A stretch of 64,000 nucleotides of DNA from Nitrospira lenta (GTDB lineage: Bacteria > Nitrospirota > Nitrospiria > Nitrospirales > Nitrospiraceae): NCBI RefSeq assembly GCF_900403705.1, contig NZ_OUNR01000016.1, forward strand, positions 186,001-250,000. Reading direction: 5' to 3'. Made by a program: the position numbers and the translations under genes. This document shows, piece after piece, positions 13,415-20,096 of the stretch. Below the pieces are notes generated by a model. That model was not told where the DNA came from and did no database searches. It saw nothing but the letters and a program-made list of their open reading frames with translations. The stretch's first letter is position 1, and the number at the start of each line of letters is the position of its first letter.

Positions 13415-13900
13415 TTAGGCTGACGCACCGGCGAGCGGCGTCAGGGTGCCAGATTCAAGGAGCGCCACGTTGAAGGCGTCCTGGTGACGAGTCAGGGGAC
13501 TGGCTCCGACCACGTCGGTGCCTGTCCCCGGTTCTGTCGATGATGCAACTGGACCAAGATCCAGCGCTGAGGGCAATCGCCGGACGCCGGGATCAATGGA
13601 ACCAGCCATGAGGCGCGTGCCGTCTACGGCGGAGCTGACGTGGTCCAATCCCATGACATGCCCGAGTTCGTGCATGAGCACGGTCATGAGATCGATCGTG
13701 CCGGCAGCCGCACGGCCTTCCAGCGCGGTGAACTGCCAGGGGTTCGCGCCGACCGCAAACTCTTCGTCAACGGGGTCGAATCGATGAACCACCCATACCC
13801 GGCGGCATCGGTGTCGAGCGTGATCGTGGTCCCCGACGTGAGTGCCAGGTAGCCATCAGCCCAGTGAAACCACTGCCAAATGCATCGACTTGATTGACCA
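13415..13900 (-). pseudogene. Matrixin-type adhesin pseudogene, copy 1
   Basis: A minus-strand remnant of a large secreted protein. It holds the matrixin-like zinc-protease motif (MTVLMHELGHVMGLDHVSSA, zinc ligands HExxHxxxxxH) followed by LMAGSIDPGVRRLPSALDLG. Compared with the copy at 53.6-55.0 kb it has a 4-bp deletion near 13767, which shifts the frame, and a deletion of about 65 bp near 13855-13878, so it cannot make the ancestral domain. The 3' part ends abruptly at fragment R2. The preserved metal site is probably a relic. Matrixin domains of this kind occur in giant LEPR-XLL/cadherin-type surface proteins; that parent is inferred. Confidence 0.68.
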
Positions 13901-13943
13901 CATTCCGATCAGTCGGTACAGTTTGGCTACCGAAGGAGAGATG

Positions 13944-14597
13944 ATGCTCAAGCGAACGTTGATTCTGTTGGTTCTGGCTCTGGCTCAATTCGGATGCAGT
14001 CAGTATGGGGAAAATGTCCCTCCCTACGATGTTCCTGTCTTGCCCGAAGAGGGACGATTCCAACGAGAGGCTGCCAAGCGTGATCACCTCCAAATTGAGG
14101 ATCTCACCATTGGAAGTGGCTCGGTCGCCGCTCGAGGTCGACGTCTGACCGCTGATGTTGAAGTTCGATACATTGATGGCACCGTTGTTTATCGCGGCAC
14201 CATAATCACTTACCCCGGATTTGGTGTTGACCTCCTCAATGGTATTAGCGATAGCAGGCTCCTCAGCACGACTCAGGAAGGAATTGATCTTGGATTGAAT
14301 GGCATGGCTGTCGGAGGCCGCCGACGTATCACCATCGACCGAAGTCTTGTATGTACCGATATCCCCGAAGGTTCCCCCCTCAATGCCTTTTGCTATTTGA
14401 CTCGTGCCCCCAAGGATCGCATCGAAGTCCGCAAGCAGACCTTGATTGTTGAAGCGACTCTGAATGAATCCTGTAATCCCGTTCTCATCTGGCAAGGCAT
14501 CTATATGTTCGGCGGATACTTGATCCACTGGCCCGCCTGTCGCAATGAATCTATCCCCCCAATTGCCCCCGGCACTCCCATCTGGCATTACTACTGA
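13944..14597 (+). CDS. FKBP-like lipoprotein, copy 1
   Basis: A 217-aa lipoprotein: MLKRTLILLVLALAQFGCS with the lipobox cysteine at residue 18. A divergent FKBP-type peptidyl-prolyl isomerase domain follows: IEDLTIGSGSVAARGRRLTA, VEVRYIDGTVVYRG and LGLNGMAVGGRRRITIDRS, matching the family's 'GxGxxAxxGxxVxxxYTGxLxDG' and 'GLxGMxVGGKRRLxIP' blocks. Several aromatic active-site residues differ, so it may bind rather than isomerise. The second ATG is chosen because AAGGAG is 5-6 bp before it. A paralogue lies at 55028. Between the two, changes fall mainly at third codon positions of this strand, so this gene, not the long opposite frame, is under selection. Confidence 0.78.
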   Translation: MLKRTLILLVLALAQFGCSQYGENVPPYDVPVLPEEGRFQREAAKRDHLQIEDLTIGSGSVAARGRRLTADVEVRYIDGTVVYRGTIITYPGFGVDLLNGISDSRLLSTTQEGIDLGLNGMAVGGRRRITIDRSLVCTDIPEGSPLNAFCYLTRAPKDRIEVRKQTLIVEATLNESCNPVLIWQGIYMFGGYLIHWPACRNESIPPIAPGTPIWHYY

Positions 14598-15286
14598 AAG
14601 ATTGCCGAGACCTAACCAGTTGCCAATGGCCACTTGAAGGGCTTGCTGTAAGGATGCATCAGTCAGTGCATCGGCAGAACTATCTTCGAGAAATCCGACT
14701 TCAGTGACTAGCGGTAAACTCGGCCCAAAGTTTCGATCACCGGGCAGACGAACAAACGCAATGGCATCAATCCAAATCTTGGCGGTTCCGAAGAAAAGAG
14801 AGGGGGGCGTTGCTTGACTTTGCATCTCGGCAAACGACCTTCCCTTACGCTCAGGTGAACCATACCTCCGCTGCGACGACTGCGAGGCAAGTATGCGAGG
14901 TCCAGCAACCTCTCCGCCAGCTAGTACTAACACCAGATCGGTGTGCACCAGGCTCAAATTCCCCGTGAACGGCGCCACACTTTCTTGTACCTGCTGAAAG
15001 ATGGCCTGAGTCAAATTGGCTAAGAGCTGGCTGACATCTGTCGGGCCGTACGGCCATTTCTGCCCATACACGTCGGATTGGGGGGGTCTGGATTTTTTCT
15101 TCAGAGACCTTTCGGCCATCCTCGTGGACGGAGCGTCGATTCCATCCACAATCGCTTGTATCAGGCCAAAGACTCTCGCCCCTTTTGTCGTAACGCGATG
15201 CATGTGGCGACGCCCAAGATTCTCGGCTGGTGCTGCTGGCGGCATGGAAATCCTGCTGTGCAGATGCGTCAGCGAGTTCGCTTCCG
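14598..15286. other. Degraded region between FKBP copy 1 and helicase
   Basis: The minus strand is open over this whole stretch, with protein-like pieces such as LLANLTQAIFQQVQESVAPF (about 15000) and WIDAIAFVRLPGDRNFG (about 14740), so it may hold wreckage of a minus-strand gene, perhaps the adhesin. No start, ribosome-binding site or recognised domain supports an intact gene. At about 15195-15240 a degenerate copy of the 3' end of the membrane-protein gene at 9046-9270 is present on the plus strand. Confidence 0.45.
15195..15240 (+). pseudogene. Remnant of the 9046-9270 membrane-protein gene
   Basis: About 45 bp, with a handful of mismatches, match the last codons of the small gene ending at 9270 (block around VATPAILAWCYW, here VATPKILGWCCW). 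The upstream part of the gene is not recognisable. The remnant converges on the intact SF2 helicase in the same geometry as the intact small gene does on helicase fragment R1. Confidence 0.6.
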
Positions 15287-16849
15287 TTATCGCTTACCGT
15301 CGTATCCCTTTTCCTGCCATCGCTCCAAGAGTTGAATTCGTTTCTGCAGCTGCTCGGTCGTGGCTTGATCGACGCGCCCTCCGGTCCGCGCGATCAGCTC
15401 CGCATTGAGGCGGCGATGATCCACACCCGTTTTCCGCGCAACGGACGCCACCAACAGGCGATGCGTATCGCGCAGATCCAGTTTCTGCTCGTGCAATGAA
15501 ACTGCGATGTCTCCCGCAACGACGCCTCCGCCCTCCCCTCGCGGGTCTTCTTCCCCGATGAGCGAGTCGAGCTTGGCCACGGCGTTCAACGGCATGTATT
15601 CTTTCGTGCTGGACACGGTGATGCGTCCGAACAAATCCCGCTGCCCGGCCGGCATGATGTCTTCCAAGACGTGATCGCGTTCCGCTTTGATCTGCCTGGC
15701 GTAGTGCACCAGAATCGGATCTTTGGGCAAGTAGAGCCAGGCACGTTGCGGCTTAGGCATGCCGTCCTGCATGCGCACGAATCGCCCGACGACCTGCCTG
15801 AAGTACATTTCCGTCAACACGTTGGTCCCGTACACCCCCACCCGCAACCGAGGGATGTCCACGCCTTCGCTCACCATGTTCACAGCGACCAGCCAGGCCT
15901 GGGTTTTATGGTCTGAGAATGACGCGATGGTCCGCGAGGCCCCCGGGTCGTCCGATACGGCCACGACCGCCTTTGTCCCGGTGATTTTTCCGATCAATTC
16001 GGACACCCATCGGGCATGGTCCTGATCCATAGCGACGATCAATCCGCCGGCATCGGCCTGCTCTTCCTTGCGCAGTCGAGTCAGTTGCTTGTGCGCATCC
16101 GTAATCACCGGACCCAGCCACGTCTCTTGCAGCAGTGCCGTCTTCAACCGTTCACGTTGGAGATCAAACTTTAATCCATCCTCGAAAGTCGCCGTATGCT
16201 CACGCCCGTCGGAGAGCCAGGTCAATTCACCTTCATAGCTGGGAAACACAATCGGCCGGCACACACTGTCTTTGATCGCCTCCGTGTAGCCATAGGCAAA
16301 GTCCGCGTGGCTCTCGCCTTGTTCGTAGCGGATGAAGGGAATCGGATTATTGTCGGAGCGAAAGGGCGTGCCGGACAGGATCAGGCGAAACACCGCCGAA
16401 TCGAATGCGGTGCGCAGCGCTTTTCCCCAGTGCTTGCCGTCTCCCGCGTGGTGCAACTCATCCAGAATGAGGAGCGTGCGCTTCCCGGTGCAGGTGCGTT
16501 GAAAAATCGCCGGAGCGAGACTGACCTGCTGATAGGTCACGACGGCGCCGTGATAGTCGGAAGCTTCGTTGGCTTGGTCGTTCGTCAGCGCCGGATCGAG
16601 TTGCAGACCGATTTTTCCAGCGGCCTCCGACCATTGCGTGCGCAGGTGGTTGGTCGGGCACACGACCAACACACGCACCGCGGCCCCTCTGGAAAGGAAC
16701 TCATGCGCGATGCGCAGGGCAAAGCGGGTTTTCCCGGCCGCCGGCGTCGCCATGGCAAGGAAATCCGCGGTCTGATGACTTTGGACCGCGGTAAGGGCAC
16801 GCTGCTGCCAGTCGCGCAGCGGGGCTGTCCAAGGAGGTAGCGTCTTCAT
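15287..16849 (-). CDS. Superfamily II DEAD/DEAH-box helicase
   Basis: A 520-aa SF2 ATPase: Q-motif-like start (PLRDWQQRALTAVQ), Walker A (ATPAAGKTRFAL), motif Ia (VLVVCPTNHLRTQW), motif II DELH (LLILDELHHAGDG), motif III (LILSGTPFRSD), motif V (AVNMVSEGVDIPRL) and motif VI (YFRQVVGRFVR). This resembles RAD25/ComFA/type III-restriction-like translocases; the substrate is unknown. The C-terminal ~130 residues are unassigned, with a helical tail (TEQLQKRIQLLERWQEKGYD). The start at MKTLPPW is chosen from family-like sequence, without a strong ribosome-binding site. The gene lies ~106 bp downstream of top6A on the same strand. Fragments of its 3' end recur at 9.3, 10.9 and 13.3 kb. Confidence 0.86.
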   Translation of the reverse strand: MKTLPPWTAPLRDWQQRALTAVQSHQTADFLAMATPAAGKTRFALRIAHEFLSRGAAVRVLVVCPTNHLRTQWSEAAGKIGLQLDPALTNDQANEASDYHGAVVTYQQVSLAPAIFQRTCTGKRTLLILDELHHAGDGKHWGKALRTAFDSAVFRLILSGTPFRSDNNPIPFIRYEQGESHADFAYGYTEAIKDSVCRPIVFPSYEGELTWLSDGREHTATFEDGLKFDLQRERLKTALLQETWLGPVITDAHKQLTRLRKEEQADAGGLIVAMDQDHARWVSELIGKITGTKAVVAVSDDPGASRTIASFSDHKTQAWLVAVNMVSEGVDIPRLRVGVYGTNVLTEMYFRQVVGRFVRMQDGMPKPQRAWLYLPKDPILVHYARQIKAERDHVLEDIMPAGQRDLFGRITVSSTKEYMPLNAVAKLDSLIGEEDPRGEGGGVVAGDIAVSLHEQKLDLRDTHRLLVASVARKTGVDHRRLNAELIARTGGRVDQATTEQLQKRIQLLERWQEKGYDGKR

Positions 16850-16955
16850 GATATGGCTGAATCCGGGTTGGCACAAAGGTCGGCAGCCGCGGCGCACGCG
16901 CGGGCTCCCTGATCTGGTGACTCCTGATTATCGAACGGTGGACCCGGGGCGACGG

Positions 16956-18059
16956 CTAATCGATCCAATCTTTTTCTTTGAGCTTCCTCGGCAGATATTT
17001 CTTGGTCAGATATTGAAAGTCTTTATTGGCCAGCGAATCCAGCTCGTACTTGAGCCCACTGGTCAGCATGCGCTTGATCTCCGCCTGCCAGGCCGGCTTC
17101 TGGAACCATTGGTAGTTCAGCAGCTCTTTCGCCCGCGCGATATCTTTCTCGTTCAACTTGATCCCCACGTTTCTGGGCAATTCGTAACGTTCCGGATCGG
17201 CACTCGATAGGCCGATAAACTTCGCTTTGGGTATGGCCATGCGCTGGCTCTCGAAGGCGAGATTGATCGACCCCTGCTTGATTACGGAATAGATGTAGTA
17301 CCCCCAGGGATCGTTATCGACCAGTACATACACCGGCAACTTATGCTCTTCGTGCAGCCGCCGAGCCAGCCGGCGGACGCCGCGCGGCGGCTGGCCGTTA
17401 CCGGTCAGCAGCACGCAGTTATACCGCCGCCAGAACTTGTCTTCCGAGAGGCGGTTCCACTGCGTCCCTTTTTCAACGAGCAACAGAAAGTCGGCCGTGC
17501 ACCGGCGGATCTCCAGATACTCCGGCTCGACGATCGATGGAACTGAGTAGCCGCCTTTGCCGAGCTTGGCGCAATCCACCCGGTCACCGTCATCGCCGAA
17601 TACGACCGGGCCGACGATGCTGCCACTGTTTTCCGCGCGCACATGCAGCTCTTCACGCAAAGCCGCGAGCGACACCTCCAGGTCTTCGATGACCGGATCC
17701 GATTCATCCTGCGTGTCGAAGGTGTTCTCATGGGAATCTTGAATGGTGTGTTTCGTCCGGTAGTAAATTTCTCGCAACGAGGTCGTCAGATCCGCACGCT
17801 GCAATTCGGAAAGGGCATCGGCGACCAGCACTGTCTGCATAAACTTCTTGGCCATGCCGACGTTGAAGAAGGACCGGGCCTGTTTCTTACTCCCCATTTC
17901 AATGAGACCTTTGCGCTCATTGAAGGACACGTTCGACAAGGCGCGAATGGGAATCGCAAAGGTCGGATCTTTCGACCGGTCAGCCGCCGCGATCACAATA
18001 TCCGCCAGGCTGATGAGCTTCTTCTCAACGGCGGTCGTTTTCTTCTGTTTGGTCGCCAT
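16956..18059 (-). CDS. top6A: DNA topoisomerase VI subunit A (Spo11-like)
   Basis: The 367-aa catalytic subunit of a type IIB topoisomerase, which makes ATP-dependent double-strand breaks with 2-base overhangs to relax and decatenate DNA. The winged-helix CAP-like domain carries the catalytic tyrosine in TTSLREIYYRTKH; the Toprim fold has its glutamate in FLLLVEKGTQWNRL and the DxD metal site in VYVLVDNDPWGYYIYS. The length is typical of Top6A. It starts 6 bp after top6B ends, so the two subunits are co-transcribed. Topoisomerase VI is mainly archaeal and plant, with scattered bacterial examples, so horizontal origin in the lineage is likely. Identification is firm. Confidence 0.95.
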   Translation of the reverse strand: MATKQKKTTAVEKKLISLADIVIAAADRSKDPTFAIPIRALSNVSFNERKGLIEMGSKKQARSFFNVGMAKKFMQTVLVADALSELQRADLTTSLREIYYRTKHTIQDSHENTFDTQDESDPVIEDLEVSLAALREELHVRAENSGSIVGPVVFGDDGDRVDCAKLGKGGYSVPSIVEPEYLEIRRCTADFLLLVEKGTQWNRLSEDKFWRRYNCVLLTGNGQPPRGVRRLARRLHEEHKLPVYVLVDNDPWGYYIYSVIKQGSINLAFESQRMAIPKAKFIGLSSADPERYELPRNVGIKLNEKDIARAKELLNYQWFQKPAWQAEIKRMLTSGLKYELDSLANKDFQYLTKKYLPRKLKEKDWID

Positions 18060-18065
18060 GTGGTG

Positions 18066-20096
18066 TTATTTCTTTCCTCTAGGCGCAGCCTTCTTACCCG
18101 GTTTCGCCGGTTTCCCCTTGGGCTTCTTGTCCGTGGCTCCCCGATCAACCACCACCGCCGGCTGTGACGCCTTCCCCTTCTTGCCTTTGGGAACTGCAGG
18201 ATCAGCCTTATGCGGCGCTGCAATTGCAGTCTGTGCCGCCGGTGCAACGGAAGCCTGTACCTGTGTGGCCAACTCAACTTCGCCTTCCACGCCGTCGGCT
18301 GTCACAATAATCGAATGGGGCAACCCTTCCGGCCCGGCACCGGTTTTCCCCAAGGCTTCATCCGTCTTGAGCCCGCCCGTGCGCGATGTGGCGATCTTCT
18401 GCAGCTGCGCTTTCAGCTTTTCTTTTGCCAGCGTGCCGCCCTTGAGGCGATTGCAGGCTTCCACCACTTCTTCGATGTAGAGCTCAAAAATATTGCGCCG
18501 CCGAAATTCGCTGGCCGCGCGTTCCCGTCGCCGCAGGAACAGCCCCAACCGCCGGCCGCACTCCCGCAGCGCGAGGGTAATTTCTTTCTGAATCTCATCG
18601 TAGTCCGCAATGGCTTCCTTGGATTCACTCGTGAACGGCACCCACACCGAGGCCATGTGCACGAAGATCACCATCGGCCCGCCCGGCAAGGCGCCGCGTG
18701 ACTGCGTCACACCATAGTTCTTCCACCCCGTGCTGAGGACGGCCTTGAAGGTGGAACAGGCGGACTGCTGATAGAGCAAGGGAACCCGGTTGGCGTAACG
18801 AATCACTCGCGCGAGTTCAGAATCCCTGTCGTCATCCTCGCCTTCCGCTTTCGGCATGGCGGGCTGCTTCGGTTTGGTCTGATCCTCCGGTCGATGGCCG
18901 AAGGCCAACCCGGCTTCGATGATAAAGGGATTGCCTCGATAGACCGCCGGCGGCCGGCTCACCGCCGTGTAAAATTCGCCTTTGATCTGCTTATAGAGTC
19001 CCGAAAGAATGGCCCGCTCGCCGATCGGCGAAAGACAATTCGTCGGCGGCGCCATGATCTTAGTGTTTTGGATGGTCTGATAAAGAATCTCTGCGGCTGG
19101 CCCCTTCAAGTCTCGCGGCTTCATGTTGGGAGAAACCTTGGCGGCCTTGCAGATCTCGTCCGCCAGTTGCGGCGACACTCGGCAGAAATCGCCGGAAAGG
19201 AAGCTGGAGACCGAGTGGCCTTTGGTATCCTGCAACATTTTCAGCAACATGCCGAATTCGATCCCGTAGGGATGCGGCATGATCTCTCGCGGGGATGGCG
19301 GCAATTCGTGATAGGTGCGAGGATACTCCTTCACCTCGCCTTCCGGCGGAGAGTAGATCAGGCGGACATGCGGATTGGCGATGGAGGTCTGCTCCAGCCA
19401 TTCGTCGACTGAGGCCCGGCCCTTTTGATATTTTCCCTCGACCTCGATCGCGACTTGCGTTCCTTGCGGCTGATTCCATTCAATCTGCTTATTCTCATGA
19501 ACGAGCGGCTCATTTTTCTTCGTATCGATCTGCACTTCGAAGTAATGGGCCGTCGCCTTCGGACCCGTACGGGAAATAATCTTCACCGGCTTCCCGGTCG
19601 TCAACTGCCCGTACATCCCCGCCGCCGAAATCCCGATGCCCTGCTGGCCCCGGCTCATCCGCATGCGGTGAAACTTTGAGCCATAGAGTAGCTTCGCAAA
19701 GATCCGCGGAATGTGCTGACGGACGATACCCGGCCCGTTGTCCGTGACCGTGATGCGAAATCTGGTTGCCTGGCTCGGAGCGACCGGCTCCCCGGGTGAG
19801 ACCACTTCAAGCTTGACGGTCACTTCAGGAAGAATCCCGGCTTCTTCACAGGCATCGAGCGCGTTATCGACCGCTTCCTTCACACAGGTCAACAACGCCT
19901 TACGCGGGTTGTCGAACCCGAGCAGGTGCCGGTTCTTCGTAAAGAATTCAGAAACGGAAATTTCCCGCTGACGCGCGCCCATCTCAGCCGCCGTGACCTG
20001 TTGGACCGGCTTGGCGGCAGCCGTCTTCGCACCGGCTGATTCAGAAACGGGTTGAGCGATAGAAGCGGACTTCGAAACAGCGCGCGCGATGGCCAT
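18066..20096 (-). CDS. top6B: DNA topoisomerase VI subunit B (GHKL ATPase)
   Basis: The 676-aa ATPase subunit of topoisomerase VI. The GHKL fold is shown by the N-box (CVKEAVDNALDACEEAG), the D-x-G-x-G box (TVTDNGPGIVRQHIP) and the GxxGxG lid (MSRGQQGIGISAAGMYGQLT). A transducer domain follows. The last ~60 residues are a low-complexity Lys/Ala/Pro tail (KGKKGKASQ, KPKGKPAKPGKKAAPRGKK) like the basic tails of DNA-binding proteins; it could add non-specific DNA affinity and is not part of the core fold. An N-terminal ~35-residue Ala/Ser-rich extension precedes the core. It is followed 6 bp on by top6A. Confidence 0.95.
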   Translation of the reverse strand: MAIARAVSKSASIAQPVSESAGAKTAAAKPVQQVTAAEMGARQREISVSEFFTKNRHLLGFDNPRKALLTCVKEAVDNALDACEEAGILPEVTVKLEVVSPGEPVAPSQATRFRITVTDNGPGIVRQHIPRIFAKLLYGSKFHRMRMSRGQQGIGISAAGMYGQLTTGKPVKIISRTGPKATAHYFEVQIDTKKNEPLVHENKQIEWNQPQGTQVAIEVEGKYQKGRASVDEWLEQTSIANPHVRLIYSPPEGEVKEYPRTYHELPPSPREIMPHPYGIEFGMLLKMLQDTKGHSVSSFLSGDFCRVSPQLADEICKAAKVSPNMKPRDLKGPAAEILYQTIQNTKIMAPPTNCLSPIGERAILSGLYKQIKGEFYTAVSRPPAVYRGNPFIIEAGLAFGHRPEDQTKPKQPAMPKAEGEDDDRDSELARVIRYANRVPLLYQQSACSTFKAVLSTGWKNYGVTQSRGALPGGPMVIFVHMASVWVPFTSESKEAIADYDEIQKEITLALRECGRRLGLFLRRRERAASEFRRRNIFELYIEEVVEACNRLKGGTLAKEKLKAQLQKIATSRTGGLKTDEALGKTGAGPEGLPHSIIVTADGVEGEVELATQVQASVAPAAQTAIAAPHKADPAVPKGKKGKASQPAVVVDRGATDKKPKGKPAKPGKKAAPRGKK

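Follow-up and report, generated by a model that had tools for sequence, protein, structure and literature searches.

What does the low-complexity tail of a bacterial DNA topoisomerase VI (topo VI) do? The question is raised by a locus in a 64,000-nucleotide stretch of the Nitrospira lenta genome (contig NZ_OUNR01000016.1, positions 186,001 to 250,000; hereafter the window), in which top6B and top6A encode a full-length type IIB topoisomerase with intact motifs. The enzyme itself is known; what is new is a conserved QxxLF-type peptide in the B-subunit tails of relatives. In many of these, topo VI may be tethered by its tail to the replication clamp, and the species of the window keeps the basic tail only; from sequence comparison we give this reading a probability of about 0.65.

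Variable basic tail of Top6B

In an alignment of 31 Top6B proteins, near-invariant columns extend to about residue 605, and the variable tail of the window's protein is therefore residues 606–676 (71 amino acids). Past the core the sequences differ from protein to protein, and Ala, Lys, and Pro are abundant in them. In the last 60 residues of the window's tail, 62% are Lys, Ala, or Pro, the top 60-residue value among the window's reading frames of at least 250 amino acids (next 52%), and 16 Lys or Arg stand against three Asp or Glu. For comparison, 115 loci were reduced to 111 loci and 93 distinct tails; L032, L041, and L070, which run off contig ends, and L069, in which the anchor of the comparison was not found and which has no strict motif (see below), were left out of the tail counts. 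Counted from this anchor the tails measure 35–102 residues, one clade having a tail of 35, and their net charge is positive in 93/93 (+1 to +16, median +8). In comparisons of the window with four close relatives, the ratio of nonsynonymous to synonymous substitution rates (dN/dS) is 0.13–0.37 in the tail versus 0.03–0.05 in the core, approximately four to nine times the core value. The tail is constrained, but loosely.

The preliminary description of the window had reported a Lys/Ala/Pro-rich C-terminal tail beyond the core enzyme and called it histone-like. The tail is real, but the label covers part of it only; the most conserved feature in 56 of the 93 distinct tails is a QxxLF-type peptide, which a reader of the window could not see because the window's copy lacks it. 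Solved archaeal enzymes gave no match to the tail, whereas relatives have it. It is not an assembly artefact, since all five members of the window's clade have it at the same length (72 from the anchor); the sharing with relatives and the dN/dS constraint rule this explanation out.

A QxxLF-type peptide in the tails of relatives

When the tails were compared side by side, QMALF, QIALF, QQELF, and QLALF were seen to recur; L044 has QQEMF. The strict pattern Qxx[LM]F is present in 56/93 distinct tails (67/111 loci), and shuffling of residues within tails gave a mean of 0.144 and a maximum of two (500 rounds). Keeping a single representative of each group of tails at 60% identity left a count of 29/49 versus 0.07 (maximum two, 1000 rounds), and a looser pattern that also admits QxxLL, QxxFL, and a six-residue form is met in 63/93 versus 1.76 (maximum seven). 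Twenty of the 30 best-scoring loci of a search of 295 genomes (L104–L133) carry the strict motif. The search pattern itself dictates Q and F; position 4 is Leu in 53 and Met in three of the 56 tails, positions 2 and 3 are variable, Lys is common just ahead of the motif (position −3 in 50/56), and in 25/56 the Gln stands 32nd counting back from the C-terminus. The codons vary synonymously (Phe TTT 33, TTC 23; Gln CAG 49, CAA 7; six Leu codons), which argues for selection on the peptide. Phe is rare, making up 69 of the 7,796 tail residues, and in 56 tails the motif contains one. The pattern was found in none of the 93 Top6B cores and in none of 88 N-terminal extensions, which are of like composition but poorer in Leu and Phe, and the window's frames of at least 250 amino acids hold four occurrences in 19,274 residues, or 0.016 per 75 residues.

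Qxx[LMI]F occurs nowhere in the window's Top6B, and the window's own protein is a topo VI subunit with a basic tail only. Among the 37 motif-less tails, six have a weaker form (QLALL, QTTFL), L079 has QMTLGF, and some look decayed (QIALV, QVALV, QLAPF). Elsewhere in the Top6B proteins without the strict motif, Qxx[LMI]F was not found. The QMTLGF of L079 resembles a six-residue clamp motif. L029 and L079 carry non-Nitrospirota names and are perhaps misbinned; L079 and L082, with Top6B approximately 75% and 71% identical to the window's, come from metagenome-assembled genomes (MAGs) named Deltaproteobacteria, on contigs of 5.5 and 8.9 kb, and their topo VI reflects either recent transfer or misbinning.

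Mapped on a tree of Top6B cores (92 rows, one identical core dropped; quick method; the QMTLGF of L079 scored as motif), the motif requires 11 changes versus 28.8 when shuffled, and is clustered on several deep Nitrospiraceae branches. Early gain followed by repeated loss is the simplest reading, although the change counts cannot separate gain from loss. The window's clade (L001, L004–L007; SH-aLRT 99) is wholly without the motif and keeps the Gln at its place (SQPAVV, SQTALP, SQPVVS, SQTALP, AQKPVA); the absence here probably represents loss.

Possible docking of the tail on DnaN

The motif in the relatives' tails lies outside the folded core and fits the consensus of bacterial clamp-binding peptides, QL[S/D]LF or more generally QxxLF, of which positions 1, 4, and 5 are the most sensitive (PMC12309361; PMC9690074). 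Bacterial clamp-binding proteins (DnaE, UmuC, MutL, and others) resemble these Top6B proteins in carrying a short QxxLF-type peptide outside the catalytic core, and this likeness suggests that motif-bearing Top6B tails dock on DnaN. The window's genome gave one DnaN match, of 374 amino acids, which aligns with solved clamps over its full length. QADLF is present in a Y-family polymerase of this genome and GQTSIFGD in its DnaE; we take both polymerase peptides to lie at the same place as the clamp motifs of Escherichia coli UmuC and DnaE. A second Y-family gene in this genome (L144) has one in-frame TGA.

We propose that topo VI serves as decatenase and relaxase alongside gyrase, no other type IIA enzyme having been found in the genome, and that the low-complexity C-terminal tail of Top6B would be a targeting tether. 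Its basic stretches would hold DNA and so add to the contacts that the outer edges of Top6B are known to make with DNA arms (PMC13040014). In many Nitrospiraceae the QxxLF peptide would bind the DnaN sliding clamp in its hydrophobic pocket, and topo VI would thereby be brought to the newly replicated DNA on which precatenanes arise. Clamp tethering in the window's clade has presumably been lost or is achieved otherwise. Tail disorder, DNA contact, clamp binding, and recruitment to the fork are steps that we infer. On balance it seems probable that an archaeal-family enzyme gained a DnaN-binding peptide in bacteria, with decatenation following the fork without topo IV, and that several lineages dropped the contact.

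In Pyrococcus abyssi, PCNA, the clamp loader, and subunits of topo VI were all recovered together with NucS (PMC4929162), a co-purification of the archaeal proteins also given in PMC8228993. The part consulted of the table in a clamp review names no topoisomerase among the bacterial clamp partners, while the PCNA partners given there include topo 1 and topo II alpha (PMC9690074). A published clamp-binding Top6B tail was not found among titles, abstract openings, and parts of texts, which does not prove its absence from print. If the tether exists, topo VI would act at or behind the replication fork and would be a bacterial clamp-tethered topoisomerase, analogous to the PCNA-bound eukaryotic topoisomerases (PMC9690074); it would also offer a mechanism by which gyrase-bearing organisms confine topo VI via its C-terminus (PMC9348778). 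The motif-less clade provides matched species for comparison.

Several observations weigh against clamp tethering. The motif is missing from 37 of the 93 distinct tails, that of the window's protein included, and is therefore dispensable. The DnaE peptide QTSIF is looser than the strict tail pattern and does not meet it, and two distant bacterial Top6B proteins (L145 and L146, approximately 55% identical) are without such a C-terminal tail. Ten of ten topo VI-less genomes of the same family (f1) likewise contain just one PF00521 gene, which weakens the idea of topo VI as an obligatory topo IV substitute; topo VI is therefore no strict replacement for topo IV. The AlphaFold model of Top6B is poor, with a mean predicted local distance difference test (pLDDT) score of 48.9 and low values in the transducer too; it is too poor to show tail disorder and neither supports nor refutes it.

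The tail might instead be a non-specific, histone-H1-like grip on DNA, with no separate partner for QxxLF. That the basic part binds DNA is plausible, and the net charge is positive in every distinct tail while the peptide comes and goes. Actinobacterial TopA offers a likeness in its Lys-rich, H1-like C-terminus, the lysine repeats of which are reported to give high processivity (PMC7398561), and the DNA-arm contacts at the outer edges of Top6B (PMC13040014) would agree with such a grip. TopA differs in being a topoisomerase I whose C-terminus is made of repeats, with no QxxLF mentioned in the sections available (PMC7398561). A grip on DNA leaves unexplained, however, why the peptide is retained, with synonymous codon turnover, in 56 of 93 otherwise variable tails, and why a residue as rare as Phe stands in the motif of each of these; we consider it rather unlikely as the whole explanation. 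It is quite improbable that QxxLF is a real docking motif for another replication or segregation protein than the sliding clamp. Short linear motifs are ambiguous, but the pattern is the same as the clamp-binding consensus in print (PMC12309361). Two polymerases of the same genome, moreover, have such a peptide at places presumably equivalent to known clamp motifs, which counts against another partner. That the tail is functionless, selectively neutral sequence is hardly credible: its variable sequence and length, the clade with 35 residues, and the raised dN/dS would fit, but dN/dS still stays at 0.13–0.37 in the window's clade, the charge is positive in 93/93, and the motif is retained far beyond chance.

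Locus and enzyme identity

The window's host genome is a Nitrospira of 3.76 Mb, and the best relatives are Nitrospira MAGs. The features of the locus are collected in Table 1. Both subunits had been described as complete, with all catalytic residues, in one operon, and this is borne out by intact open reading frames (ORFs), equivalog profile matches, and verified motif positions; the two genes lie on the same strand, with 6 nt from the top6B stop to the top6A start. What the preliminary description observed is confirmed, and its interpretation is partly supported.

Table 1. Features of the topo VI locus, in window coordinates.
Feature	Position	Strand	Basis
top6B, DNA topoisomerase VI subunit B, 676 aa; GHKL ATPase, H2TH, transducer, low-complexity tail	18066..20096	−	ORF, profiles, motifs
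top6A, DNA topoisomerase VI subunit A, 367 aa; catalytic-Tyr domain, Toprim	16956..18059	−	ORF, profiles, motifs
Top6B C-terminal tail, residues 606–676; variable, Lys/Ala/Pro-rich, positive charge	18069..18281	−	alignment, composition
Top6B residues 645–649 (QPAVV), site of Qxx[LM]F in 56/93 distinct relatives' tails; Gln alone kept here	18150..18164	−	tail comparison
Top6B N-terminal extension, residues 1–34	19995..20096	−	no Qxx[LM]F in 88 extensions
Neighbouring ResIII/DEAD-type helicase, 536 aa, next gene after top6A	15287..16897	−	not claimed as part of topo VI

Top6A scores 577 bits against NF003333, an NCBIfam equivalog with a cut-off of 465, and matches the Pfam models TP6A_N, Topo_VI_alpha, and Toprim. 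It has two Tyr at 99–100, one of which we take to be the catalytic residue, and the Toprim-fold residues E196 and D248/D250. Top6B exceeds the cut-off of NF003218 (658 bits; cut-off 274), also passes TIGR01052, Topo-VIb_trans (PF09239), and PF02518, and contains E74/N78, DNGPGI at 119–124, GQQGIG at 150–155, WKNY at 458–461, and Lys 493, presumably the switch Lys. The H2TH domain, which is absent from topo VIB-like proteins, is present, judging from an unbroken alignment to the Methanosarcina mazei B subunit between GHKL and transducer; the AlphaFold model places helices at 281–344, with a block pLDDT of 70–87 up to residue 340. From these features the enzyme is predicted to be active.

The arrangement was followed in 81 loci, namely that of the window plus those of the best 80 of 548 relatives, a sample that leans to close relatives. 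In 77 of them a frame for the A subunit opens on the same strand at most 400 nt from the B stop. It was not found in three (L032, L041, and L070), and in two of these the contig stops just after or within B; the remaining locus, L082, was left out of this count.

Distribution of topo VI beside gyrase

A top6B gene over the family cut-off was found in 72 of 295 Nitrospirota genomes, 13 of the match-less ones being absent from the tabulated rows. These include all 40 listed genomes of the genus (the window's own among them), 28 of the 39 other listed genomes of the same family, and four genomes of the same class; in one further genome of the family (G153), top6B is in two pieces and below the cut-off. 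Topo VI was also found in 3/118 and 3/198 genomes of, apparently, one phylum and in 1/3 in a class. The enzyme, typically one of archaea and plants, had been described as only scattered in bacteria, which does not hold within Nitrospira, where it is genus-wide and no sporadic oddity.

The window's genome has one PF00521 gene, in which QGRGGKG was read by eye as GyrA-box-like against what we take to be the GyrA box consensus. It lies on the same contig as dnaN, approximately 3 kb away, with what by eye are presumably gyrB and dnaA between and beside them. Topo IV was not found in this genome, because the sole PF00521 gene bears the GyrA-box-like sequence. In the f3 genomes common to both searches, 6/6 have two PF00521 genes and no top6B over the cut-off. 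Topo VI in Nitrospira has already been published for N. moscoviensis, with gyrase present and topo IV absent (PMC11302465), and the window's genome agrees with it in having gyrase and no topo IV found. The same paper names further bacterial families with topo VI, among them Pirellulaceae, Anaeromyxobacteraceae, Nitrobacteraceae, and Pseudobdellovibrionaceae.

Relation to other topo VI enzymes and origin of the subunits

The window's topo VI shares both subunits and the catalytic motifs with the archaeal enzymes of M. mazei (2Q2E) and Saccharolobus shibatae (2ZBK). Identity over the aligned stretches is 45.6% (M. mazei) and 32.5% (S. shibatae) for B, and 32.5% and 40.4%, in the same order, for A. 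The sequence match to M. mazei Top6B ends at residue 542; past this residue the Ig-like C-terminal domain was not recognised by sequence, the AlphaFold model being too poor there, and the protein ends in the variable basic tail instead. N. moscoviensis has the same enzyme (Allen and Maxwell 2024, PMC11302465), and the B subunit of its locus (L054) is 80.9% identical to the window's; its tail has QMALF, whereas the window's does not. The words "tail" and "disordered" are absent from the main text of that paper, and its sections available mention no clamp motif (PMC11302465).

Gyrase-bearing archaea have lineage-specific C-terminal Top6B extensions, proposed to specialise or sequester topo VI (PMC9348778), and the likeness lies in the extra C-terminal part. 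In Euryarchaea group II the extension is a folded domain, whereas that of Nitrospira is a bacterial low-complexity tail with a candidate tether peptide. Two haloarchaeal Top6B proteins (L147, L148) have neither Qxx[LM]F nor a PCNA-interacting-peptide-like pattern. L145 and L146 come from the phylum group of L079 (labelled Myxococcota), and in L145 (G393), a divergent Top6B, the basic sequence stands at the opposite end, as a long N-terminus of KKAVKKQ repeats.

A subunit phylogeny had been proposed for dating a transfer. With a handful of archaeal sequences, A and B have different nearest archaea, and separate origins of the two genes are suggested, not established. In trees with long branches and few archaea, with groups named after the trees were seen and L082 left out, the A data reject Nitrospira and L145/L146 as one clade (approximately unbiased test, p = 3.7e-5), and the B data do not reject a grouping of Nitrospira with S. 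shibatae (p = 0.11). No topo VI match was found in a phage collection of 50,697 records, none of 59 pattern matches in viral contigs was confirmed as topo VI, and neither Top6A nor Top6B had a PADLOC match, which speaks against a mobile or defence origin. Five plasmid records have a match, three of which, from Natrinema, Natronorubrum, and Salinibaculum, cover at least 80% of the query.

Neighbouring genes and other scans

The helicase that follows top6A is weakly similar to PbeA and dnd restriction proteins. In 43 relatives' loci a homologue is found downstream; it starts 1.1–1.4 kb past the B stop in 42 and at 2.5 kb in L054, and is absent from 24 loci with more than 3.2 kb of downstream sequence. 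QRDLF, a possible clamp motif, is present in 41 of the 43 homologues and is kept in the window's clade (L004–L007) too; it may be incidental, since the whole protein is well conserved. RNA family models gave no matches in the window, and the promoter and terminator scan was at or below the shuffle mean. Next to the helicase gene, at 13415–15245 (−), is an ORF of 492 amino acids without a Pfam, NCBIfam, or PADLOC match. It overlaps an ORF of 125 amino acids with a weak matrixin (Peptidase_M10) match around HELGHVMGLDH, and the two are possibly one broken or frameshifted gene for a secreted metalloprotease.

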